A stretch of DNA of 64,000 bases, taken from Frankiales bacterium (GTDB lineage: Bacteria > Actinomycetota > Actinomycetes > S36-B12 > CAIYMF01). Shown here in pieces: positions 4,710-20,655 of the stretch; position 1 is the first letter of the stretch; each line of letters begins with the position of its first letter. The notes beneath the pieces are model-generated. The model saw nothing but the letters and a program-made list of their open reading frames with translations. It made no database searches and was not told the DNA's origin. The position numbers and the translations under genes were made by a program. The stretch is from contig WGLY01000015.1 in assembly GCA_016125335.1 (NCBI GenBank), positions 62,001-126,000 on the forward strand, read 5' to 3'.

Positions 4710-6146
4710 TCAGGAAGGGTAGGCGCCGGCGGGGGCGTGCGGCAGCGCGACACCGATCCGCGCGCCGCCCTCGGGTGCGTTGCCGGCGTAGGCCCGGCCG
4801 CCGAGCCGTGCTGCCAGCCGCCCCACCAGCGCCAGCCCGACGCCGGTGCCGACCTGGCGGACGCCGTGGTAGCGCTCGAAGAGCGCGGCCGGCTCGAACG
4901 CGACCGCGACGTCGTCCGGGGTGAGGCCGGGGCCGCCGTCGCGCACCTCGACCGCGGCGCCCCACGTCTCCGGGCGCACGGACAGCACGAGCGGGCGCCC
5001 GGACGGCGTGACGCGCAGCGCGTTCTCGGCCAGGTTGTCGACGATCTGGCGCACGCGCAGCGGGTCCGTGCGCACCACCAGCGGTGTCGCGGGCAGCTCC
5101 GGCACGAACACCACGCCCTCGCGCTCGCAACGGGCCGACCACACGGCGGCGGCGTCGGCGCCCAGCGCGGCGAGGTCGACGTCCACCGGTGAGAGGCGCA
5201 GGTCGGCCGCCCCGAGGCGGGCGAGATCGAGCAGGTCGGCCACGAGCCGGTCGAGGCGCTCGGACTCGCGCAGCAGGGTGGCACCGGTGCGCGGCACCTC
5301 GCCGGGCGCCACGACGCCGTCGGCGAGGGCCTCGGCGTATCCCTTGATGCCCGTCAGCGGTGTGCGCAGCTCGTGCGACACGGAGAGCAGGAAGTCGCGC
5401 TGGCGGCTCTCGCTGGAGGCCAGCGCCCCGGAGAGCCGGTTGATCGACTCCCCCACCGACGCGACCTCGGCGGGACCGTCCGGCACGAGGGCGACGTCGC
5501 GCGCGCCGTCGGCGAGCCGGTGCGCGGCCTCCGCCGCGTCGCGCAGCGGCCGGACCACACGACGGGCCACCACGTAGCCGAGCAGCGCCGCGACGACGAG
5601 ACCCGCGAGCAGGGCGAGGGCGAGGCGGCGCAGCGCCAGCCCGGCCTGCGAGCCGGCCACCGCGGCGTCCTGCACGAGGAAGACCGACACCCCGGAGCTG
5701 ACCTGGCGGCCCTCGACGTAGACGGTGCCGCCGTCGCCGCCCCGCACGTCGCTGACGCTGCCGCCCGCCGCCGTGACGGCGACGTCCGCCGCCGTCACCG
5801 GCGGCTGCGGCGGACGGCGCGGGCGGACCACCTGCACGGTGATGCCCTGAGCCACGAGCGCCGCGCGCCACCGGGCCAGTCCGGAGCCTACCGGGTCGTT
5901 CTCGGCGCGCGCCACGACATCGACCACGAGGTCGGCCTCGCGGGCCAGGGTGTCGCGGGCCTGCGCCTCGCTCGCGCGCGACACCAGCGGGATCGACACC
6001 AGTGCCGCGACCACGACCGCCACCACCGCGACCAGCGAGGTGGTGAGGGCGAACTGGCGGGTGAGGCTCGGCCGCCGGCGCGGGGCCGCGGCGGGCGGGG
6101 GCGCGGGCACGGCGTACCCGGCCGCCGGGGACGGCGGGACGCTCAC
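4710..6146 (-). CDS. Two-component sensor histidine kinase with HAMP domain
   Basis: A 478-residue OmpR-partner type kinase. A Pro/Ala-rich N terminus is followed by helix 1 (about 33-57), an extracytoplasmic sensor region of about 115 residues, helix 2 (about 170-195), a HAMP linker, the HisKA domain with phospho-acceptor His258 in SVSHELRTPL, and the HATPase domain with LAENAL (N box), RDGGPGL (G1) and GTGVGLALV (G2). The GTG start at 6146 lies 4 nt after the response regulator stop. The signal is unknown; the sensor region matches no domain I recognise. Confidence 0.93.
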   Translation of the reverse strand: MSVPPSPAAGYAVPAPPPAAAPRRRPSLTRQFALTTSLVAVVAVVVAALVSIPLVSRASEAQARDTLAREADLVVDVVARAENDPVGSGLARWRAALVAQGITVQVVRPRRPPQPPVTAADVAVTAAGGSVSDVRGGDGGTVYVEGRQVSSGVSVFLVQDAAVAGSQAGLALRRLALALLAGLVVAALLGYVVARRVVRPLRDAAEAAHRLADGARDVALVPDGPAEVASVGESINRLSGALASSESRQRDFLLSVSHELRTPLTGIKGYAEALADGVVAPGEVPRTGATLLRESERLDRLVADLLDLARLGAADLRLSPVDVDLAALGADAAAVWSARCEREGVVFVPELPATPLVVRTDPLRVRQIVDNLAENALRVTPSGRPLVLSVRPETWGAAVEVRDGGPGLTPDDVAVAFEPAALFERYHGVRQVGTGVGLALVGRLAARLGGRAYAGNAPEGGARIGVALPHAPAGAYPS

Positions 6147-6150
6147 CGGC

Positions 6151-6852
6151 TCACGCCCCGCCGCGCGGGTCGGCGCTGTAGCCCACGCCGCGCACGGTGC
6201 GGATCGGGCTGGCCGCGCCGAGCTTCGCGCGCACCTGGGCGACGTGGACGTCGACGGTGCGCGTGCCCACCACGGCGGCGTAGCCCCACACCTCGCTGAG
6301 CAGCTGCTCGCGGGTGAACACCCGCCCCGGCGACCGCATGAGGTGCGCGAGCAGGTCGAACTCGGTGGCGGTCAGCTCGACGTCGCGGCCCGCCACGGCG
6401 ACCCGCCGGGTGCCGCGGTCGACGGTGACCTCGCCGACGGCGAGCGGCGCCGAGGCCGTGGCCGGCCCGTCGGCGCGGCGCAGCACCGACTTCACCCGCG
6501 CCACCACCTCGCGCGGCGAGAACGGCTTGGTGATGTAGTCGTCGGCGCCGAGCTCGAGGCCGAGCACGCGGTCGATCTCGTCGTCGCGCGCCGTGCAGAA
6601 CAGCACCGGCACCCAGTCGCCCTCGGCCCGCAGCGCGCGGCACACCTCGGTGCCGTCGAGCTCGGGCAGCCCGACGTCGAGCACGACCGCCACCGGGGCC
6701 AGCGACCGGGCGGCGGCCAGGCCGGCCCGGCCGTCGCGCTCGACGTGGACGCCGTAGCCCTCGCGCGCGAGGTACATCCGGAGCAGGTCGGCGATGGAGG
6801 CCTCGTCCTCCACGACCAGGACGAGGCCGCGCTCGGACCCCGGGGTGCTCAC
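6151..6852 (-). CDS. OmpR/PhoB-family response regulator
   Basis: A 233-residue transcription factor. The receiver domain has the acidic pair in VVEDE, phospho-acceptor Asp59 in VLDVGLPELDG, and Lys in YITKPFSPRE. The winged-helix DNA-binding domain contains LTATEFDLLAHL, a recognition-helix region at VVGTRTVDVHVAQVR and IRTVRGVGY. GTG start at 6852. Two 25-nt direct repeats lie just upstream and may be its own binding sites. It is paired with the kinase 4 nt downstream. Targets cannot be read from the window. Confidence 0.94.
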   Translation of the reverse strand: MSTPGSERGLVLVVEDEASIADLLRMYLAREGYGVHVERDGRAGLAAARSLAPVAVVLDVGLPELDGTEVCRALRAEGDWVPVLFCTARDDEIDRVLGLELGADDYITKPFSPREVVARVKSVLRRADGPATASAPLAVGEVTVDRGTRRVAVAGRDVELTATEFDLLAHLMRSPGRVFTREQLLSEVWGYAAVVGTRTVDVHVAQVRAKLGAASPIRTVRGVGYSADPRGGA

Positions 6853-8155: not shown

Positions 8156-9726
8156 GCGCCCGCCGTCCGCATCGTCGAGGCCATGGCGACGGCGCGCAGC
8201 ACCGCCGCGGCCTTGTTCACGCACTCGACGTGCTCGGTCTCCGGGACGGAGTCGGCCACGAGGCCGGCCCCGGCCTGCACGTACGCGACGCCGTCCTTGA
8301 CCACCGCGGTGCGGATCGCGATGGCGGTGTCGAGGTCGCCGGCGAAGTCGAGGTAGCCGATGGCGCCGCCGTAGATGCCGCGGCGCACCGGCTCGAGGTC
8401 GTCGATGATCTCCATCGCGCGCGGCTTGGGCGCGCCCGAGAGCGTGCCCGCCGGGAAGGTCGCCGCGAGCACGTCGTACGCCGTGCGGCCGGGGGCGACC
8501 CGGCCGACCACCGTCGAGACGATGTGCATGATGTGGCTGTAGCGCTCGACCGACATGAAGTCGATCACCTCGACCGTGCCCGGCGCGCACACCCGGCCGA
8601 GGTCGTTGCGGCCGAGGTCGACGAGCATGAGGTGCTCGGCGCGCTCCTTCTCGTCGGCGAGCAGCTCGTCGGCGAGTGCGTTGTCGGCCTCCGGGGTTGC
8701 GCCCCGGGGGCGCGAGCCGGCGATGGGGTGCAGCAGCGCGCGCCCCTCCTCGACCTTCACCAGCGCCTCGGGCGAGGACCCGACGACGTCGAAGGCGACC
8801 TCGTCGGACAGCGACCCGTCGGCCGTTCGCACGGGCACGCGGAGCAGGTACATGTAGGGGCTGGGGTTGGTCACGCGCAGCACCCGGTAGACGTCCAGCG
8901 ACGACGCCGGGCACGGCGCGGAGAAGCGCTGCGACAGCACGATCTGGAAGGCGTCGCCCGCGCGGATGTGCTCCTTGCACGCCTCGACCCCGGCCTGGAA
9001 GTCCTCGGGCGTCGACCGCGCCGACACCTCCACGGTCGCCGTGGTGTCGTAGGTGGACGCCGACGCCGCGGAGCTGCGGGCGAGGTCGGCCTGCATCGCG
9101 TCGAGCCGGGCGACGGCGTCGTGCCACGCCTCGTCGACGCGCTCGTCGGTGGCGTCGTAGTTGATCGCGTTGGCGATGAGCAGGACCGACCCGTCGTGGT
9201 GGTCGAGCACGGCGAGGTCGGTGGCGAGCAGCATCGCGAGCTCCGGCACGCCGAGCTCGTCCGGGTTGGCGTCGGGCAGCCGCTCCCAGCGCCGCACGAC
9301 GTCGTAGGAGAGGTAGCCGACCATCCCGCCGGTGAGCGGCGGCAGCCCGGGCAGGCGCTCGGTGTGCAGGGCCGCGATGGTGTCGCGCAGGGCCTGCACG
9401 GGGTCGCCCGTGGTGGGCAGCCCGACCGGGGCGTTGCCGTACCAGCGGGCCTCGCCGCCGGTCTCGGTGAGCATCGCGGCGCAGCGCACGCCGACGAACG
9501 AGTAGCGCGACCACGAGCGCCCGTGCTCGGCGGACTCGAGCAGGAACGTGCCGGCGCGCTCCCCCGCGAGCTTGCGGTAGAGGCCCGTGGGGGTCTCGCC
9601 GTCGGCGAGCAGCCGGCGCACCACTGGGATCACCCGGCGGTCGCGGGCGAGGACCCGGAAGGTGTCGAGGTCGGGCGAGGCCGACCCGGCGAACGTGGCG
9701 GCGTAGGGCTCGGCGGTGGCGGTCAC
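8152..9726 (-). CDS. trpE: Anthranilate synthase component I
   Basis: Makes anthranilate from chorismate with ammonia supplied by TrpG, which is not in the window. At 524 aa it is full length. The feedback-inhibition motif is present as LLESAEHG near the N terminus. Catalytic and chorismate-binding motifs are [33 protein letters not shown] and YGGAIGY. The GTG start at 9726 overlaps the hisI stop by 4 nt, leaving no room for a trp attenuator. Expression is therefore likely driven from hisI or further upstream. Confidence 0.97.
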
Positions 9727-10112
9727 GAGCTGCTCCCGGCGAGGTCGAGCAGGAGGTCGGCGTCGAAGCAGGTGCGCTCGCCCGTGTGGCAGGCGGCGCC
9801 CACCTGGTCGACCGCGAGCAGGACGGCGTCGCCGTCGCAGTCGAGGCGCACGGAGCGCACGTGCTGGGCGTGGCCGGAGGTGTCGCCCTTCACCCAGTAC
9901 TCCTGCCGCGAGCGCGACCAGTACGTCGCGCGGCCGGTGGTGAGGGTGCGGCGCAGCGCCTCGGCGTCCATCCAGGCCAGCATGAGCACCTCGCCGGTGT
10001 CCCACTGCTGGGCCACCGCCGCGACGAGGCCCGTCTGGGGGTCGGGACGAAGCCGCGCGCGCACGGCCTCCCACTGCTCGGCGTCGAACGCGACCTGCTC
10101 CACGGGCGCCAT
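9723..10112 (-). CDS. hisI: Phosphoribosyl-AMP cyclohydrolase
   Basis: Opens the purine ring of PR-AMP in histidine synthesis using Zn and Mg. It is 129 aa and monofunctional (no HisE domain). Metal and catalytic motifs are present: [30 protein letters not shown] and [11 protein letters not shown] start at 10112. It overlaps trpE by 4 nt, tying a histidine gene to tryptophan synthesis. The other his genes lie at 15-27 kb. Confidence 0.96.
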
Positions 10113-10247
10113 TGTGCCGTGCGGGGGCGAGCCCGTTTCGCGCCCCGAGGGCCCGGGCCGTCCGCGGGCCGTCGGCGCCGTCCCGGACGGCGGCCGGGAG
10201 CGACCACCTGCGCCGGGTGTGCCGGGCGCGCCGGCGCGGCTGCCGGA

Positions 10248-13200
10248 TCAGGCCGAGAGCAGCCAGGACCGCGCGTCGCCGCGCAGCAGCAGCGCGACGA
10301 CCGAGCCGGAGAGCGCGAGCGTGACCACGAACGAGATGAGCGAGCCGTTGCCCGTGAGCAGCGTGCCGACCGACCAGAGCAGGTTGAGCCCGCTCAGGAC
10401 GAGCAGCACCCACGCGCCCCAGCGCCGTCCGCGCACCGCGGCGACCCCGCAGGCGAGGTAGACCGCGCCGTCCGCGAGCAGCACGAGGGCCCCCACGAGC
10501 ACGAGCGAGGAGACCGAGACCGTGAGGGTGCCGTCGCCGCTCGCGATCGCCCGGTTGAGGGTGTCGAGGTCGTGGGCGAGCGAGAGGTAGGCCAGCACGG
10601 CGAGGACGCCGACGACCAGCGTGATCGCGCCCTCCACGATGCCGATGACGCCGGCGGCGGTCACGCCGCCGGGGATCCGGCCCGGGGCGGGGTGCGCGTC
10701 CCCTGCGACGTGGGGCGACATCGGACCCGGTGCGACGGAGTCCCAGGGGCTCACCGGACCCGGCGCCGCCACGGCGGCCCCGGCGATCCCGGGAGCGGCG
10801 TAGGGCCCGGTGGGGACGGCGGGCAGGTCGATCGGCGTGCCGAACCGGTTCACGGCGCCCGGTTGGTACCCGGCCTCCGCGGGGGCGGGGGGCACCGGCG
10901 CGGCCGGGGTCGGTGCGGCCGGGGTCGGCGGCTCGGCCAGCAGCGTCCCGGTCGCGCCGGCGGGGTCGGGGACGAGCAGGGTCGACGCGGCGGCGGCCGC
11001 GACCGGCATGCCGGCGGCCACCGTCGCGACCGGAGCGGCCACGCTCGCCGGGGCGCTCGCGGCGGCGACGGCCGGCGCGGGCACGCTCGCCGCGGCCCCG
11101 GGGTCGGACCCGGGCCACGACGCGAACGCCGGCTCTGCCGACGGCTCGGGCATCGCGGGGGCGCTCTGCTGCACGGGGATCGGGTCGGGTGCCCGCTCGG
11201 CCGCAGCGACCGGCTCGGCGGCGGGCTCGGGCAGGTACGGCCCCGGCTCCGGCACGCCCACCGCCACCGGCACCTCCGCGACGACGGCCTCGGCCACGAC
11301 CGGCTCGGGGACGGCAGCGGCCGCAACGACGGCGTCGGGGACGACGATCTCGGGGTCGGCCGCAGCGACCGGCTCCACGTCGGGCTCGGGCAGGTACGGA
11401 CCGTGCTCCGGCACGAGCTCCGCCACCGGCACGTCGACGGCGAGCTCCTCGGGCTCGACAGCCTCGGGCCCGGCCGCGGGGACGAGCTCGGCGGCGGGCT
11501 CGGGCAGGTAGGGGCCCGGCTCGGGCACGCTCACCGGCACCGGCACGTCCGCGACGACGGCCTCGGCGACGGCCGCCTCGGACACGACCTCCTCAGCGTC
11601 GGGCGCGGGCGGGTACGGACCCGGCGCCGGCATGCTCACCGGCACCTCCGCGACGACGGCCTCCGCTGCGACCGGCTCGGCGACCTCGACCGCAGCCGCA
11701 GGCGCGACAGGCTCGGGCACGACCGCCTCGGGCACAACGGTCCCGGGCCCGGCCGCGGGGACGAGCTCGGCGGCGGGCTCGGGCAGGTAGGGGCCCGGCT
11801 CCGGCACGCTCACCGGCGCCGGCACCTCCGCGACGACGGCGTCGGGGACGACGATCTCGGGGTCGGCCGCAGCGACCGGCTCTGCGTCGGGCTCGGGCAG
11901 GTACGGACCGTGCTCCGGCACGAGCTCCGCCACCGGCACGTCGACGGCGAGCTCCTCGGGCTCGACAGCCTCGGGCCCGGCCGCGGGCACGAGCTCAGCG
12001 GCGGGCTCGGGCAGGTACGGACCCGGCTCCGGCACGCTCGCCGGCGGCGGCACCTCCGCGACGACGGCCTCGGCCACGACCGGCTCCGGGACCGCAGCCA
12101 CAGGGACGACAGCCACAGGCGCGACGACCTCGGGGGCGACGGCCTGGGTCTCGGGCAGGTACGGACCGGGCTCCGGCACGCTCACCGTCACCGGCGTCTC
12201 CGACACGACCGCCTCGGACACGACCTCCTCGGCCACGACCGGCTCGGCGACCGCAACCGCAGGGACGACGACCTCAGGCACGACAGCCTCGGGGGCCACG
12301 GTCACGGACTCGGCGGCAGCGACCGGCTCGGCGGCGGGCTCGGGCAGGTAGAGGCCCGGCTCGGGCACGCTCGCCGTCACCGGCACGTCCGGCACGGCCG
12401 GCCCGGACACGACCTCCTCGGCGGCCGGCTCGGCGACCGCAGCCACCGGGTCGACAGCCTCAGCCACGACCGCCTCAGGCCCCGCGGCCGGCTCGTCCGC
12501 GGGCTCGGGCAGGTACGGACCGGGCTGCGGCACGGACTCCGCCACCGGCACGTCCGACCCGACCGCCTCGGGAACGACGATCTCGGGGTCGGCCGCAGCG
12601 ACCAGCGCCTCGGCAGGCTCGGGCAGGTACGGACCGGGCTCCGGCACGGACTCCGCCACCGGCACGTCCGACCCGACCGCCTCGGGAACGACGATCTCGG
12701 GGCCGGCCGCAGCGACCAGCGCCTCAGCAGGCTCGGGCAGGTACGGACCGGGCTCCGGCACGACCTCCGCCACCGGCGCCTCGATGGTGCCCACCTCGGG
12801 CTCGGGTGCGGGGGCGGTCTCGGACACGGGCTCGGGCAGGTACGGGCCGGGCGCCGGTACGAACTCCGCCACCGGCACCTCGATGGCGCTCGCCTCGGGA
12901 CCGACGATCTCGGGGCCGGCCGCAGCGACCAGCGCCTCGGCAGGCTCGGGCAGGTACGGACCGGGCTCCGGCACGGACTCCGCCACCGGCACCTCGACGG
13001 CGCTCGCCTCGGGCTCGGGCGCAGCGGCGGTCTCGGACCCGGGCTCGGGCAGGTACGGCCCCGGCTCCGGCACGGACTCCGCCAGCGGAACCGCCGCGAC
13101 GTCGGCCTCGGACTCGACCGCCTCCGGGACCGCAGCCACGGGGACGACAGCCTCCGGCACGACAGCCTCAGGCATCGGGGCCAGCCCGGCCGCGGGCTCG

Positions 13201-13958
13201 GGCAGGTATGGACCGGGCTCCGGCGCGCCCCCCTCCGCCGCCACCTCGGGCACGACGGCCTCGGGCACGACGGCCTCGGGCACGTCGGCCTCGGAGGTGA
13301 CAGCGTCGGGAGCGACCGCGGCGAGAACTCCCACCGCCTCGTCGGACGCCGAGACCTCGGGGGCGTCCGACGCCACCGGTGCCGGCGGGAGGTCCGGGGC
13401 CGCCGGCTCGGGGGCCGCCGACTCACGGGCTTCCGGCTCAGGGGCCGCCGACTCCGGTGCCGGTGGCTGCGGGACGTGCGTCGCGGGGGCCGCCGACGAC
13501 GGTGCAGCGGGGTACGGAGTCGGGCTCGGGACCTGCGCCGGCGCGGCCGGCCGGACCGGCTCCGCCTCGGGGGTGCCGACGGCGAGCGCGAGCCGCTGCT
13601 CCTCGGTCAGCCGCGCGGTCGGGTCGGACCCGGGCAGCGGCGCCGCGAAGGGCGGCAGCGGGGCCGGCGGCGGCAGGATCGGTGTGGCCGGGGCGGCGCC
13701 CTCGACGTCGACGGGGATCCCGAAGCGGTTGACCTGCACCGAGTAGGCCTCGTGCAGCACCCGGTCGATGTCCGGGGCGGCCTCGACCACTCCGGGGTCG
13801 ACGGCGGTGACCGGTGCGGACACGGCGTCGAGCGGGATGCCGAAGCGGTCGACGGCGCGCGAGGGTGCAGGAGCGGGCGAGCCCTGCCCGTCGTCGGCAG
13901 GGCCGGTCCCGTCGTCGGGCGTGCCGATGGCGAAGAAGTCGTAGCCCGGGTCGGCCAT
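10248..13958 (-). CDS. Large Pro/Glu/Ala-rich tandem-repeat protein with C-terminal membrane domain
   Basis: I do not recognise this 1236-residue protein. The start is ATG 13958 with AGGAG about 8 nt upstream. Residues 1-90 carry two copies of V(D/N)RFGIPxD (FGIP at 39-42 and 79-82). From about residue 250 to 915 there are 16 copies of a unit centred on VPEPGPYLPEP, with spacers of valine, alanine, proline and glutamate, usually 33-60 residues long; two copies read HGPYLPEP and one PGLYLPEP. A third motif, VNRFGTPID, lies near residue 1036, followed by four predicted helices in the last 140 residues. The repeats should be extended and acidic, giving a long filament tethered to the membrane. 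It stands alone between hisI and a divergent gene. Codon use resembles its neighbours. Confidence 0.85.
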   Translation of the reverse strand: MADPGYDFFAIGTPDDGTGPADDGQGSPAPAPSRAVDRFGIPLDAVSAPVTAVDPGVVEAAPDIDRVLHEAYSVQVNRFGIPVDVEGAAPATPILPPPAPLPPFAAPLPGSDPTARLTEEQRLALAVGTPEAEPVRPAAPAQVPSPTPYPAAPSSAAPATHVPQPPAPESAAPEPEARESAAPEPAAPDLPPAPVASDAPEVSASDEAVGVLAAVAPDAVTSEADVPEAVVPEAVVPEVAAEGGAPEPGPYLPEPAAGLAPMPEAVVPEAVVPVAAVPEAVESEADVAAVPLAESVPEPGPYLPEPGSETAAAPEPEASAVEVPVAESVPEPGPYLPEPAEALVAAAGPEIVGPEASAIEVPVAEFVPAPGPYLPEPVSETAPAPEPEVGTIEAPVAEVVPEPGPYLPEPAEALVAAAGPEIVVPEAVGSDVPVAESVPEPGPYLPEPAEALVAAADPEIVVPEAVGSDVPVAESVPQPGPYLPEPADEPAAGPEAVVAEAVDPVAAVAEPAAEEVVSGPAVPDVPVTASVPEPGLYLPEPAAEPVAAAESVTVAPEAVVPEVVVPAVAVAEPVVAEEVVSEAVVSETPVTVSVPEPGPYLPETQAVAPEVVAPVAVVPVAAVPEPVVAEAVVAEVPPPASVPEPGPYLPEPAAELVPAAGPEAVEPEELAVDVPVAELVPEHGPYLPEPDAEPVAAADPEIVVPDAVVAEVPAPVSVPEPGPYLPEPAAELVPAAGPGTVVPEAVVPEPVAPAAAVEVAEPVAAEAVVAEVPVSMPAPGPYPPAPDAEEVVSEAAVAEAVVADVPVPVSVPEPGPYLPEPAAELVPAAGPEAVEPEELAVDVPVAELVPEHGPYLPEPDVEPVAAADPEIVVPDAVVAAAAVPEPVVAEAVVAEVPVAVGVPEPGPYLPEPAAEPVAAAERAPDPIPVQQSAPAMPEPSAEPAFASWPGSDPGAAASVPAPAVAAASAPASVAAPVATVAAGMPVAAAAASTLLVPDPAGATGTLLAEPPTPAAPTPAAPVPPAPAEAGYQPGAVNRFGTPIDLPAVPTGPYAAPGIAGAAVAAPGPVSPWDSVAPGPMSPHVAGDAHPAPGRIPGGVTAAGVIGIVEGAITLVVGVLAVLAYLSLAHDLDTLNRAIASGDGTLTVSVSSLVLVGALVLLADGAVYLACGVAAVRGRRWGAWVLLVLSGLNLLWSVGTLLTGNGSLISFVVTLALSGSVVALLLRGDARSWLLSA
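11220..13215 (-). repeat. Coding tandem repeat, 16 imperfect copies
   Basis: Each copy is marked on the plus strand by the core GGCTCGGGCAGGTA, which encodes YLPEP. Local periods include 114 bp (38 codons): 12541 onward recurs at 12655. A longer block at about 11326-11522 recurs 507 bp (169 codons) away at about 11833-12029 with few changes. All periods are multiples of three, so the frame is kept. Confidence 0.85.
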
Positions 13959-14139
13959 GGTCGTGCTCCTCTGCGCGGGGCCGGGCGGCACCCGTCCTCC
14001 CCGAGGGACTCGACACGTCCGGCCACCACCTTGACGCCCGGACCGCGCCCGGGCGGTCGCCGGGACCCCGGACGGACCAACCACGAACCGGGCCCGGCCG
14101 GCACCGGGGGGACGCCGCAGCCCGGATCCCGCCCGTGCG

Positions 14140-14188
14140 CGCCACGACCGGGCGCCCCGGGCGGCGGCAGGGGCCACCGGTCGTGGCG
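14140..14188. promoter_or_regulatory. 12-bp perfect inverted repeat upstream of the TIGR03085 gene
   Basis: CGCCACGACCGG at 14140-14151 and its exact complement CCGGTCGTGGCG at 14177-14188, 25 nt apart. It ends 16 nt before the TAGGGT -10 of the plus-strand gene. An operator or RNA-independent DNA fold is possible; no regulator is known. Confidence 0.45.
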
Positions 14189-14203
14189 GGCCCGGTCCCT
14201 GCC

Positions 14204-14209
14204 TAGGGT
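14204..14209 (+). promoter_or_regulatory. Putative leaderless promoter -10
   Basis: TAGGGT exactly 6 nt before GTG 14216, with no Shine-Dalgarno between. Confidence 0.5.
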
Positions 14210-14215
14210 GGCGGG

Positions 14216-14884
14216 GTGACCTCCAGTCCCGCTGCCGCGCCGGTGCCCGCCAACGCGACGGCCCAGGCCGAGCGGGACGCCCTGTGCGACCTGCTTCTCG
14301 CGACCGGGCCGGACGCCGCCACGCTGTGCTCGGGGTGGACCACCCGCGACCTCGCCGCCCACCTCGTCATCCGCGAGAACCGCCCCGACGCCGCGCTCGG
14401 GATCGTGCTGCCGCCCGTGGCGCCATGGACGGGGCGCGTGCAGTCCGACACGGCCCGGCAGGACTTCGCGTCGCTGGTGGAGTCGGTCCGCCAGGGCCCG
14501 CCCCGCTGGTCGCCCCAGGCGCTGGCCCCGGTCGACGGGGCGACGAACACGATCGAGTTCTTCGTGCACCACGAGGACGTGCGCCGCGCCCAGGACGGCT
14601 GGGAGCCGCGCGAGCTCGACGCGCCGACCTCGGACCAGCTGTGGTCTCGGTTGCGCGACGGCTCCCGGTGGCTGCTGCGCCGCAGCCCCGTGGGCGTGAT
14701 GGCCACCCCGACGGACGGGCCGGACGCCGGTCGCGAGGTGCGGCTGCGCGGCGGCGAGCCCGTGGTGCGCCTCGTGGGTCCGGTGGGCGAGATCGTGCTG
14801 GCGTGCTACGGCCGGCTCACCCGCGGCCTCGAGGTGCGCGGCGGCGGCCCGGAGGTCACCGCCTTCCTCAGCTTCCCGCGCTGA
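14216..14884 (+). CDS. TIGR03085 family metal-binding protein (DinB/MDMPI-like)
   Basis: A 222-residue member of the maleylpyruvate isomerase/DinB four-helix-bundle superfamily, TIGR03085 type. Putative metal-binding histidines lie in LAAHLVIREN and FFVHHEDVRRA. Substrate unknown; relatives may use mycothiol or act as thiol transferases. GTG at 14216 was chosen because it follows TAGGGT by 6 nt (leaderless). It is a single gene, divergent from the repeat protein and convergent with hisF. A perfect 12-bp inverted repeat lies just upstream. Confidence 0.85.
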   Translation: MTSSPAAAPVPANATAQAERDALCDLLLATGPDAATLCSGWTTRDLAAHLVIRENRPDAALGIVLPPVAPWTGRVQSDTARQDFASLVESVRQGPPRWSPQALAPVDGATNTIEFFVHHEDVRRAQDGWEPRELDAPTSDQLWSRLRDGSRWLLRRSPVGVMATPTDGPDAGREVRLRGGEPVVRLVGPVGEIVLACYGRLTRGLEVRGGGPEVTAFLSFPR

Positions 14885-15076: not shown

Positions 15077-15868
15077 TCAGCCCGGCTGGACGACGGGACG
15101 CCGTACCGGGTGCCCGGCCTGCTCGAGGGCGGCCTTCACCTGCGGGATGCGCAGGTCGCCGAAGTGGAAGACGCTCGCGGCCAGCACGGCGTCGGCGCCC
15201 GCCTCCACCGCCGGGGCGAAGTCCTCGAGCCGGCCCGCGCCGCCGCTGGCGATCACCGGCACGGTCACCGCGGCGCGCACGGCGCGGATGAGCGCGAGGT
15301 CGTAGCCGTCCTTGGTGCCGTCGGCGTCCATCGAGTTGAGCAGGATCTCCCCCGCGCCGAGCTCGGCGGCGCGCGCGGCCCAGGCGACGGCGTCGATGCC
15401 GGTGGAGCGGCGGCCGCCGTGCGTGGTGACCTCCCAGCCGGAGTCGGTGCGCACGCCCTCGGGGCAGCGCCGCGCGTCGACCGAGAGCACGATGCACTGG
15501 GCGCCGAAGCGCTGCGCGGCCTCGTGCAGCAGCTCCGGTCGGGCGATGGCCGCGGTGTTGATGCCCACCTTGTCGGCCCCCGCGCGCAGCAGCCGGTCGA
15601 CGTCGTCGACGCCGCGCACACCGCCCCCGACGGTGAGCGGGATGAACACCTGCTCGGCCGTGCGCCGCACGACGTCGTAGGTGGTCTCGCGGTCGCCGCT
15701 GCTCGCGGTGATGTCGAGGAAGACCAGCTCGTCGGCGCCCTGCGCGTCGTAGGCGCGGGCCAGCTCGACCGGGTCGCCGGCGTCACGCAGGTCGACGAAG
15801 TTGACGCCCTTGACCACGCGGCCCGCGTCGACGTCGAGGCAGGGGATCACCCGCACGGCCAGACTCAC
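15077..15868 (-). CDS. hisF: Imidazole glycerol phosphate synthase subunit HisF
   Basis: The cyclase half of IGP synthase. It uses ammonia from HisH to turn PRFAR into IGP and AICAR. The 263-residue TIM barrel is complete: catalytic Asp in [14 protein letters not shown] and in [13 protein letters not shown], and phosphate loops VGGGVR and ASGGAG. GTG start at 15868 follows TAGGCT by 7 nt. It is split from hisH by about 7 kb, so the two subunits of one enzyme are expressed from different units. Confidence 0.97.
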
Positions 15869-18370: not shown

Positions 18371-20023
18371 TCAGAACGGCGGGACGTCGGGCCCGGTGCC
18401 GGACACGTCCCCGGGAGGTGCGTCGAGCGGCTCGGGCAGGTACGAGCGCGCGGGGGTCGTGCCGTACTGCCCCAGGCGCGTGCACCAGGCGGCCCGGCCG
18501 TCGGCGCCGTGCTCGACGTAGCGCAGGTGCCCGTCGGTCTTGAGGGAGTGGTCGCGCGCGCAGAGCGCGTGCGTGTTGGCGGTGTCGCTGGGGCCGTGCG
18601 GGAACGGGACGACGTGGTCGAGCTGCGACCGGTGGGCGGGTTGTCCGCAGCCCGGTGATCGGCAGGTGCCGTCGCGCGCCGCGACGAAGGCGCGCAAGGC
18701 GTCGGGCAGGTAGGTGCGCGTGCCGTAGTCGAGCAGGTGCCCGTCGACCGGATCGGTGACGACGCGGCGCATCGACCCGCACGACGTCGCGAGCTCGCGG
18801 GCGATCTCGGCCGGCACGGGCTGCCCGGACAGCAGGCCCGGCTCCTCGGCCAGCCCCAGCAGGGTTGCGAGGTCGACCACGACCTGGAGCTCACCGCGCC
18901 GGCTGCGTCGCCCGCCTCCACGACGGCGGCGACCCGCTGAGACCTCGGGGTCTGCGGTACCGGTGCGGGCGGGAGCGCCCGGGCCGTCGGACGCGTCGAC
19001 GTCGGCACCGGCGCCGGGACGGGAGATGTCGTCGGCTGCCAGCACCCGGTCGAGGTGGGCGGCCGCCCGGGCCGGCCCGATCTCGTCCGGCACTGCGGCG
19101 GCGCAGGGCGGGCAGCCGCGGCGGTGCGCCAGGAAGCGGTCAGCGTCGGTGTCGAGCGCCTCGATGATCGCGCGGGCGTCCTCGATCCGGTGCACGGCCG
19201 TGATCTGTCCCAGCCCGTCGGGCAGCGGGCGGAACCACACGCCGAGGTCGTGGCGACGGGCGCGGCGGATCCGCGCGGCCTGGCCGGCCGGGTCGAGGCG
19301 GGTCAGCACGCGCGTGAGCTCCGCACCCACCCGGTGCGAGCCGAGCCGGCCGACGCGGGCCAGCACGTGGGTGAGCGCGGTGTCGAGCGTCGCGGGGTCG
19401 TGCCCGGCGGTGCGGTCGAGGAAGGCCGCGACGTGCCGGGAGGAGATCGCCCCGCACTCCCACGCGTCGCGCACCGACCGCAGCTCGCGCGCGAGGCGCC
19501 GCGCGGCGTCGAGGTCGCGCCGGGCTGCCGAGTCCGAGCACGACCTCGCCAGGCGCACCTCCAGCGCGAGCGCACGGTCCGGGTCCGCGACGATCCACGC
19601 GGAGGACGCCGTGACGCTCCCCGGGATCGCGCGCGTGGAGGTGTCGGCGTCGGCGAGGTCGGACAGCGCCCTGGCGGCCTGCGCCGCCGCCCAGGCGGCG
19701 ACCCGGTCGGCCAGGCGCAGCCGGTCGAGCAGGCCGTCCTCGTCGAGGAGCGCCGGATCGACGGCGACGAGCTCCGCCGCCGTCGCGGCCGAGACGGGAC
19801 GGGCCAGCGCGTCGGAGAGCATCCGGCGGGCCGCCGCCCGGGCCGCGACCCGAGGCGGGAGCGGCGACCGGGGCGCCATCCCGTGCCGGCCGGCCGGGCC
19901 CACCCGCACCGGGCGCGTGCCCGGTGCGCGCACGACGTCGACGTCGCGCAGCCGGGCGCAGGGGCCAGCGAGCCCGGCCACGGCGAACCGCGCCTCGAGC
20001 ACCGACACCCCTCGACCTCGCAT
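18371..20023 (-). CDS. DUF222 domain protein with C-terminal HNH endonuclease domain
   Basis: A 550-residue member of a family that is often multi-copy in Actinobacteria. An N-terminal DUF222 helical region (about 60-290) is followed by a low-complexity basic linker (about 350-390, Arg/Gly-rich) and an HNH nuclease domain. The metal and nuclease motifs are CRSPGCGQPA, SQLDHVVPF and NTHALCARDH. The start is ATG 20023 with GGGAGG about 9 nt upstream. Role unknown; it has no partner genes, so calling it a defence or mobile gene is not justified. Confidence 0.85.
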   Translation of the reverse strand: MRGRGVSVLEARFAVAGLAGPCARLRDVDVVRAPGTRPVRVGPAGRHGMAPRSPLPPRVAARAAARRMLSDALARPVSAATAAELVAVDPALLDEDGLLDRLRLADRVAAWAAAQAARALSDLADADTSTRAIPGSVTASSAWIVADPDRALALEVRLARSCSDSAARRDLDAARRLARELRSVRDAWECGAISSRHVAAFLDRTAGHDPATLDTALTHVLARVGRLGSHRVGAELTRVLTRLDPAGQAARIRRARRHDLGVWFRPLPDGLGQITAVHRIEDARAIIEALDTDADRFLAHRRGCPPCAAAVPDEIGPARAAAHLDRVLAADDISRPGAGADVDASDGPGAPARTGTADPEVSAGRRRRGGGRRSRRGELQVVVDLATLLGLAEEPGLLSGQPVPAEIARELATSCGSMRRVVTDPVDGHLLDYGTRTYLPDALRAFVAARDGTCRSPGCGQPAHRSQLDHVVPFPHGPSDTANTHALCARDHSLKTDGHLRYVEHGADGRAAWCTRLGQYGTTPARSYLPEPLDAPPGDVSGTGPDVPPF

Positions 20024-20655
20024 GCCCCCATCCTCCCGCCCACCTCCGACAACGCGGGCGATCCACCGATCCCCCACCGCACCCGACGCCGGGATCCCGT
20101 GCAGCGCAAGCGATCACAGCCGCGGCACCGTGAACGGCGACCCGCACCGGCCGCGTCGGTGGCTGACGGAGAGGAATCGTCGTCCCCGGGATACGTTGCG
20201 GCCCAGCCGATCTCAGGACCGGCGAGACCGCTGCTGCGCCGGCAGCCGTGACGACGAGGAGCCGCACGACCCCTCGGGATCCCAGGCAGTCCAGCCGCCC
20301 CGGGCTCCGGTGCGCAGCCGAACCGCACCTGACCCGGACCGCGCCCGTCGCGCGCGAGCCGGTGATCCCCGGCGACTCAGCGCGGTTCAGCAGCGAGGCC
20401 CAGCCCGGCCCTCACCGCGTCGTCTGCGTGTGCCGTCCCCGGGACAAGCCCCAGGATCCGGCGGTGCCCCGGCTGATCTCGGCACCCACGAGCAAGCGCG
20501 CCTCACCGGACCGGCAGCGTTCACGAGTCGCGCGAGAGCCGGGGACCCCGGATGGCCCCACCGGTCTCAGCGCCGGCGCAGCCGATGTCACGGCATGGGC
20601 GGCGTCCGCGGCGGCGCGTCAGCCCGGCTCGGCCGGTGGGCGCCGGACAGGTGGC
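20024..20655. other. 632-nt gene-free region with diverged repeats
   Basis: No reading frame here looks like a protein. Loosely related segments recur about 170-190 nt apart: GGGATCCCGTGCAG near 20091 and GGGATCCCAGGCAG near 20277, and a pair of similar stretches starting near 20322 and 20494 (shared GCGAG(A)GCCGG...CCCCGG). It may be decayed repeats. No tRNA or clear promoter is seen other than the HNH Shine-Dalgarno. Confidence 0.4.

Follow-up and report, generated by a model that had tools for sequence, protein, structure and literature searches.

A small actinobacterial membrane protein whose tail has expanded to some 1,100 residues with recurring motifs: a candidate docking scaffold

The gene and its reading frame

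The minus strand of a 64,000-nucleotide stretch of DNA from a Frankiales bacterium (contig WGLY01000015.1, positions 62,001 to 126,000; the whole stretch is referred to below as the window) carries a gene, here named gene X, for a 1236-residue product: a small membrane protein to which a tail of roughly 1,100 residues, rich in repeated motifs, has been added by growth. Genomes and loci of other organisms are given by their G and L numbers where they have to be told apart. The gene and its upstream signal are located as follows.

10248..13958, minus strand: whole gene X, 1236 amino acids and stop, supported by translation, coding statistics and in-frame homologues at both ends
13966..13971, minus strand: GAGGAG, Shine-Dalgarno-like, 7 nt 5' of the ATG of gene X, read from the sequence

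Translation of 13958..10248 yields exactly 1236 residues. The reading frame is genuine, as follows from its G+C content by codon position (0.865/0.566/0.928; 0.74-0.80/0.50-0.58/0.96-0.99 in the comparison genes trpB, hisF, hisA and the maleylpyruvate isomerase (MPI)-like neighbour), from the periods of the tandem repeats within it, all of which are multiples of 3, from the GAGGAG upstream, and from homologues that align in the frame of gene X at both ends. A GGAG also precedes the start codon in all six relatives whose start lies on the contig. Neither a sigma-70-like promoter nor an intrinsic terminator was found in 9600-14300, which carries little weight in such G+C-rich DNA. The encoded protein contains no lysine at all; its residues 1-1095 include 173 acidic (D+E) and 11 basic (K+R) residues, with a computed pI of 4.05, and K or R is absent between residues 179 and 921. 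The original prediction for this DNA had described 1236 residues with four helices at the C terminus, 16 repeats of PGPYLPEP type and three copies of V(D/N)RFG(I/T)P, and recounting confirmed each of these numbers.

A small family with conserved short motifs

The C-terminal 210 residues of gene X match 8 of the 17 genomes of its taxonomic family, its own included, and gene X is therefore not an orphan; in its own genome they match only themselves. All 17 genomes were kept in the counts, including G004, whose relative (L008) is truncated at the contig start and lacks its first residues. The seven relatives are 234-370 aa long (that of G004 being N-terminally truncated by the contig end), so that the gene X protein is 3.3 to 5.3 times their length. 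Its motif-bearing features are the following.

13923..13943, minus strand: YDFFAIG, the family YDFF motif, residues 6-12, N-terminal; YDFF also in 7/7 relatives
13827..13853, minus strand: VDRFGIPLD, residues 36-44; counterpart in G010
13707..13733, minus strand: VNRFGIPVD, residues 76-84; stretch common to G010 (AYSVQVNRFGIPVDVEGAAPATPIL in one, AYSVEVNRFGSPVTLEGAAPATPIL in the other)
11223..13217, minus strand: 16-unit PGPYLPEP-type array, residues 248-912, spacing 33-63 aa
10827..10853, minus strand: juxtamembrane VNRFGTPID, residues 1036-1044; N, F, G and P invariant in 8/8
10788..10814, minus strand: PTGPYAAPG, conserved block, residues 1049-1057; GPY in common with the repeats

The relatives share one order of parts. 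YDFF comes first, as YDFFATG in six of them and as YDFFGTA in the seventh; a proline-rich stretch that varies between members leads on to (V/L)N(Q/R/H)FGxP, and a GP(Y/F/A/S)AAPG block then precedes the four hydrophobic helices. In the second of these motifs N, F, G and P are invariant in all eight family members, gene X included, and in the GPYAAPG block P, G, P, A, A, P and G are likewise invariant, with Y in five members and F, A and S once each. The N-terminal YDFF and the juxtamembrane NxFGxP...GPYAAPG block are the parts that define the family.

The pattern V[DN]RFG[IT]P[LVI]D occurs three times in gene X, at residues 36, 76 and 1036, and 2,000 shuffles of the protein sequence put the chance expectation for RFGxP at 0.001 per copy. 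Across its own genome the RFG(I/T)P-type pattern has five sites, three in gene X and two in unrelated frames. The relative in G010 carries four NxFGxP copies in 370 aa and no array; two of its copies are counterparts of the N-terminal copies of gene X, one of which lies in the common stretch AYSV(Q/E)VNRFG(I/S)PV..EGAAPATPIL. The suggestion that the RFG motif looks functional, not a product of low-complexity drift, is thus borne out by N(Q/R/H)FGxP in 8/8 members and by the G010 counterparts, whereas the role of processing site that had also been considered for it found no support. At the DNA level the NxFGxP pattern has eight sites in 7 of the 17 family genomes, seven in gene X and one in G014, a genome without gene X, where NRFGIPVD stands in an 81-aa open reading frame with A+T-rich codons (L093:1308-1551, plus strand) and is probably there by chance. 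In a class-wide sample of 394 genomes the YDFF(A/G)TG pattern was met in three, always within gene X; this sample held four genomes with gene X, and the AIG variant of gene X itself cannot match the pattern.

More distant relatives share the membrane domain. The family profile finds a match at E ≤ 0.001 in 18 of the order's 166 genomes; eight of these are the family itself, and the other ten match the membrane region only (E 9.9e-7 to 9.1e-4); around the four of these ten that were checked (L044-L047) there are no his or trp neighbours, save one response-regulator fragment. Of 148 in the class sample, 18 match, own genome included, the other 17 in the C-terminal part of the profile and some into the juxtamembrane block. 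YDFF, NxFGxP, GP(Y/F)xxP and PGPY were found in none of the 29 distant membrane-domain relatives scanned, and YDFF and NxFGxP therefore mark the small family, not the superfamily. Absence of the RFG motif from all homologues of the membrane domain, which would have contradicted the original prediction, was not seen within what was searched: the family has the motif, in the generalised form NxFGxP, and the distant relatives scanned are without it. One four-helix protein from another family (genome G205; L078:68-289, minus strand, and upstream) starts with MTQSYEYFVAP, whose YEYF is faintly YDFF-like; it might be a remote relative in which the N-terminal motif has degenerated.

When the membrane domain was compared by hhalign with an alignment designated A5, made of 8 chosen, mutually similar proteins out of 20 non-own class-sample matches, the probability was 98.1% over 156 columns, against 0.6% and 0.2% for two unrelated membrane families used as controls (2 and 6 sequences). 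On this profile evidence the membrane domain of gene X is distantly related to actinobacterial four-helix proteins with proline-rich tails, which we presume to be of Nocardia type. Like gene X, the A5-type proteins consist of a proline-rich N-terminal tail followed by four helices; unlike it, they are without YDFF or NxFGxP and are mostly encoded by open frames of about 200-275 aa (394 in L069).

No Pfam model exceeded its cut-off for the gene X protein or its seven relatives, and NCBIfam gave no meaningful match for gene X or the relatives searched. Weak similarity of the membrane domain to DUF4064, DUF7144, YbjO-like, DUF6264, DUF2127 and DUF3185 models appears in single members and always below the curated cut-off (YbjO 17.1 and 14.2 bits, 24.2 needed; DUF4064 19.8, 32.1 needed; DUF7144 12.1, 27 needed). 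Gene X thus belongs to a small family that is unnamed in the libraries searched, none of which holds a characterised family covering both motifs and helices, in agreement with the original prediction. Four of the relatives are in a named public collection, all as metagenome-assembled genomes labelled Actinomycetes, Candidatus Nanopelagicales, Micrococcales and Actinomycetota. Since no Pfam or NCBIfam cut-off was passed and these four are all metagenome-assembled, the gene X protein has probably never been studied before. Text searches of the literature for YDFFATG, NQFGTP and PGPYLPEP gave no match, and 'VNRFG' occurred in three papers, on unrelated subjects.

A lineage-specific repeat array and its constraint

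The exact PGPYLPEP sequence occurs 11 times in gene X, and relaxing it to [PH]G[PL]Y[LP]P[EA][PT] brings the count to 16. Residues 218-912 contain 16 tyrosines, one per repeat unit, and the array has almost no other aromatic residue. Among the 166 genomes of the order the exact pattern is present in one, at 11 sites, all of them in gene X; the seven relatives' sequences have no PGPYLPEP-type repeat, the order-wide search having been made with the exact pattern. The array is a lineage-specific addition to the family, and the GPY tripeptide that it shares with the juxtamembrane block suggests that it may have been derived from that block. A natural size series results, from proteins of 234-260 aa with one NxFGxP through one of 370 aa with four to the 1236 aa of gene X with three and 16 PGPYLPEP units; the excess length of gene X is explained by the added units and the retention of extra NxFGxP copies.

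Tandem repeats are error-prone in assembly, and this array is seen in one genome only, so the array or its copy number might be an assembly artefact. We regard this as extremely unlikely, given that the units differ among themselves, that the frame is open throughout, and that the gene lies on a 247-kb contig of a 41-contig genome that is 99.73% complete.

Constraint on the repeats was estimated from all pairs of the 16 units over a 10-residue core, using only codons with one difference. In the core the proportion of synonymous differences (pS) is 0.218 and that of nonsynonymous differences (pN) 0.037, giving a pN/pS of 0.17 (unit bootstrap 0.04-0.41), while the ten residues upstream give 4.04 (bootstrap 2.0-18.7) and the ten downstream 0.99; synonymous divergence is highest in the core among the three regions. 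In a six-frame test the true frame has the lowest core ratio, 0.20, the next being 0.48. These values support constraint at the protein level on the repeat core and none on the spacers, selection on the core being supported and not proven, because the pairs are not independent and units may have been exchanged.

The same data bear on a passive role of the tail, as a linker or entropic brush that takes no part in docking. Slippage during replication and unequal crossing-over in G+C-rich DNA would then have lengthened the array, with only the juxtamembrane block mattering, for folding or packing of the membrane domain. The restriction of the exact repeat to 1 of 166 genomes, relatives that manage without the array, the unconstrained spacers, a ratio of only 0.63 in a wider window and 15-bp sub-repeats, which suggest slippage, all agree with such a role. 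It is harder to reconcile with a core pN/pS of 0.17 in the region of highest synonymous divergence, with the conservation of YDFF at the far N terminus, distant from the membrane, and with the retention of the N-terminal RFG copies in two genomes, and we consider it possible but on balance unlikely.

Predicted topology and structure

The C-terminal domain corresponds to one further feature.

10284..10670, minus strand: four transmembrane helices (predicted), residues 1097-1225, from hydropathy and AlphaFold2

Hydropathy in 19-residue windows above 1.6 marks residues 1097-1132, 1142-1176, 1182-1202 and 1204-1228. It also flags short Val/Ala-rich stretches of the tail (windows from 552-563, 605-616, 871-876 and 973-978, peak 1.94), which were not counted as helices because they are broken by Pro and Glu. 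AlphaFold2 was applied to the last 70 tail residues and the helices of gene X, and to one relative, L036. It places the helices of gene X at residues 1097-1139, 1149-1175, 1179-1202 and 1207-1225, with ten-residue confidence means of 76-92, falling to 55-66 around the first external loop; the tail means are 34-61 in the last 70 tail residues of gene X and in the whole 100-residue tail of L036. The tail is accordingly likely to be disordered and probably extended. The earlier description of the protein as membrane-tethered, acidic and probably extended is supported.

Basic loops mark the cytoplasmic side of membrane proteins (the positive-inside rule). The loop between helices 2 and 3 contains R1176, R1178 and R1179 and no acidic residue, the first external loop is acidic, and no hydrophobic N terminus is present (best 15-residue mean 1.37 within the first 60 residues). 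From the basic loop and the missing hydrophobic N terminus a cytoplasmic tail may be deduced, and both ends of the protein would be cytoplasmic (N-in/C-in). Acidic proline-rich repeats do occur in wall-spanning proteins, and the original prediction had pictured a fibre. Of that picture the extended form is probable, and the external location that the word suggests is not: an extracellular or wall-spanning acidic fibre was rejected on the predicted topology, with the ends inside and no LPxTG in the protein, and is very improbable.

A Foldseek search returned nothing at E ≤ 0.001. No solved relative of the whole protein was found at the same threshold, and the profile gave one chance-level receptor match (E 0.04). 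In VIA-align the tetraspanins Tspan15 (Z 10.8, 3.1 Å, 127 aligned) and CD9 (Z 9.7, 3.3 Å, 134 aligned) score under the Z of about 13 that is advised for helical bundles.

Gene neighbourhood

Gene X lies among genes of histidine and tryptophan biosynthesis, of which the nearest are listed with the MPI-like gene.

9723..10112, minus strand: hisI, next gene downstream of gene X; NF000768 above cut-off
14216..14884, plus strand: divergent MPI-like neighbour (mycothiol maleylpyruvate isomerase N-terminal-like); PF11716 at 22.9 bits, just below the cut-off of 24.2
15077..15868, minus strand: hisF; TIGR00735 above cut-off

Beyond hisI follow trpE, a tryptophan-associated membrane protein, a two-component pair, a DUF2752 gene, trpC and trpB. 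The pair, a histidine kinase and a response regulator within the trp cluster (4710-6852, minus strand), has both members matched in G006 and G007, and the regulator also in G010. On the other side a membrane protein of the SfLAP family (PF11139; 16097-16807, plus strand) adjoins hisF, in G010 too, and a DUF222-HNH endonuclease gene (18371-20077, minus strand) lies between hisF and the hisA-type gene.

The order hisF, MPI-like gene, gene X, hisI, trpE is kept in 5 of the 7 relatives (G010, G003, G011, G006 and G007); in the other two (G009 and G004) the contig starts at gene X, and hisI and trpE follow. The anticipated position of the same gene beside hisI in relatives was thus recovered in 7/7, hisI following directly in four (G010, G003, G011 and G004) and after one gene in three. 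That gene is Septum_form (PF13845) in G006 and G007 and another one in G009.

In all nine family genomes without a gene X match hisI was found. In G005, G012, G013 and G014 the distance from the matched part of the MPI-like gene to that of hisI is 93-142 bp, and in G015 and G016 the matched parts of hisF and hisI lie about 140-180 bp apart; in G001 and G002 no hisF was found within 1.5 kb. In G008 there is an 856-bp gap with a frame that by eye resembles the Septum_form gene of G006, the scanned part of which had no Pfam match at 1e-3. In a tree of HisI and TrpE the presence of gene X is patchy, G008 (without it) grouping with G006 (with it) at a support of 0.73. Support is weak on several branches (0.28, 0.44), and the gene has likely, though not provenly, been lost more than once. 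A phage or plasmid origin of gene X was rejected, since a tblastn search of a phage collection with the relative L033, one of a plasmid collection with the C-terminal part of gene X, and PADLOC were all without a match.

Possible function

Taken together, the architecture is consistent with a membrane-anchored multivalent docking scaffold, a reading to which we give moderate confidence. Four helices would anchor the protein in the inner membrane, its two ends being cytoplasmic, and would hold a long, acidic, disordered N-terminal tail. The tail bears short linear motifs, YDFF at its tip and NxFGxP and GPY near the membrane, to which one or several soluble proteins of the cytoplasm might bind and so be kept at the membrane. 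In the present lineage, the addition of PGPYLPEP units and the retention of extra NxFGxP copies have produced a longer protein, which would offer more docking sites (a higher valency) and reach further. Speaking for docking is the conservation of the short motifs in 8/8 members within an otherwise variable proline-rich tail.

Two characterised proteins are comparable in anatomy. Rv0954 is reported to be a mycobacterial divisome protein found at mid-cell; four helices are predicted for it, its ends are cytoplasmic, and its cytoplasmic tail is proline-rich (PMC8093794). Gene X resembles this description in its four predicted helices and its proline-rich tail, and its ends, judged from charges, would likewise be cytoplasmic. 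It differs in the placing and composition of the tail, which Rv0954 has at the C terminus, rich in P/Q, and gene X at the N terminus, rich in P/A/V/E; the likeness is one of description. GlpR (Cgl0885) is described as the membrane receptor of the gephyrin-like Glp, with three predicted helices, an acidic, cytoplasmic disordered region IDR1 of pI 4.05 and a second, basic disordered region (PMC10522489). Its acidic tail resembles that of gene X, the identical pI being a coincidence that means nothing by itself; gene X has four predicted helices and is without the second, basic region, and membrane-anchored docking, demonstrated for GlpR in that account, can only be supposed for gene X. No moeA-like gene stands among the identified neighbours (trpE, hisI, MPI-like, hisF, SfLAP and DUF222), although no dedicated search was made. 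Gene X is not shown to be a member of the Rv0954 or GlpR families.

From these likenesses a component of division or polar growth may be imagined, which would be the equivalent of Rv0954 or GlpR and serve as tether for a protein of the divisome; the probability of such a role overlaps with that of docking in general. Besides the anatomical likeness to both proteins (PMC8093794; PMC10522489), it could draw on the Septum_form gene next to gene X in 2 of the 7 relatives, convergent with it, which scores above the cut-off of 25 bits in G007 (45.4; L041:9963-10673) and below it in G006 (20.0; L040:7518-8162). Septum_form is, however, a family name only, the Septum_form-like frame seen by eye in G008 occurs without gene X and gave no Pfam match in the part scanned, the tail is at the opposite end from that of Rv0954, GlpR has three helices, and PF17270 (DUF5336) does not match. 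A counterpart of this kind is in our view rather unlikely, and a partner in the division or polar-growth machinery would be a guess by analogy.

PF17270, which we take to be the family of Rv0954, is absent among the matches at E ≤ 1 for the gene X protein and its seven relatives, and the distant relatives L065 and L066 match it weakly (17.7 and 21.7 bits, cut-off 28.6). Gene X is not placed in DUF5336, because none of the 17 family genomes has a PF17270 match at E ≤ 0.01; the 14 control genomes of this search gave a match in B. subtilis only, below cut-off, and thus no strong positive control.

Several observations weigh against the docking scaffold, this missing PF17270 match among them. Gene X is undetected in 9 of the 17 family genomes and is therefore dispensable in the lineage, and its neighbours, being genes of amino-acid biosynthesis, give no hint of its function. 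Many actinobacterial membrane proteins have proline-rich tails, and a large share of these may be mere linkers. GlpR, too, is likened to gene X by description. As for the repeats, the wider window of 19 residues raises the ratio to 0.63, some of the closest pairs differ equally at codon positions 1-2 and 3, and exchange between the non-independent units may homogenise the cores and bias the ratios.

A more specific form of the docking scaffold may be proposed, to be taken as speculative and doubtful, in which the 16 tyrosine-bearing PGPYLPEP units would act as stickers in an acidic, lysine-free array amplified from the conserved GPYxxP motif beside the membrane, clustering a partner there and perhaps forming a condensate. 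If this sticker-and-spacer arrangement is true, an adaptor with few sites became a multivalent membrane organiser. More generally, the size series of the family lends itself to the study of how short docking motifs become more numerous within a disordered tail and of whether the additional copies alter function.

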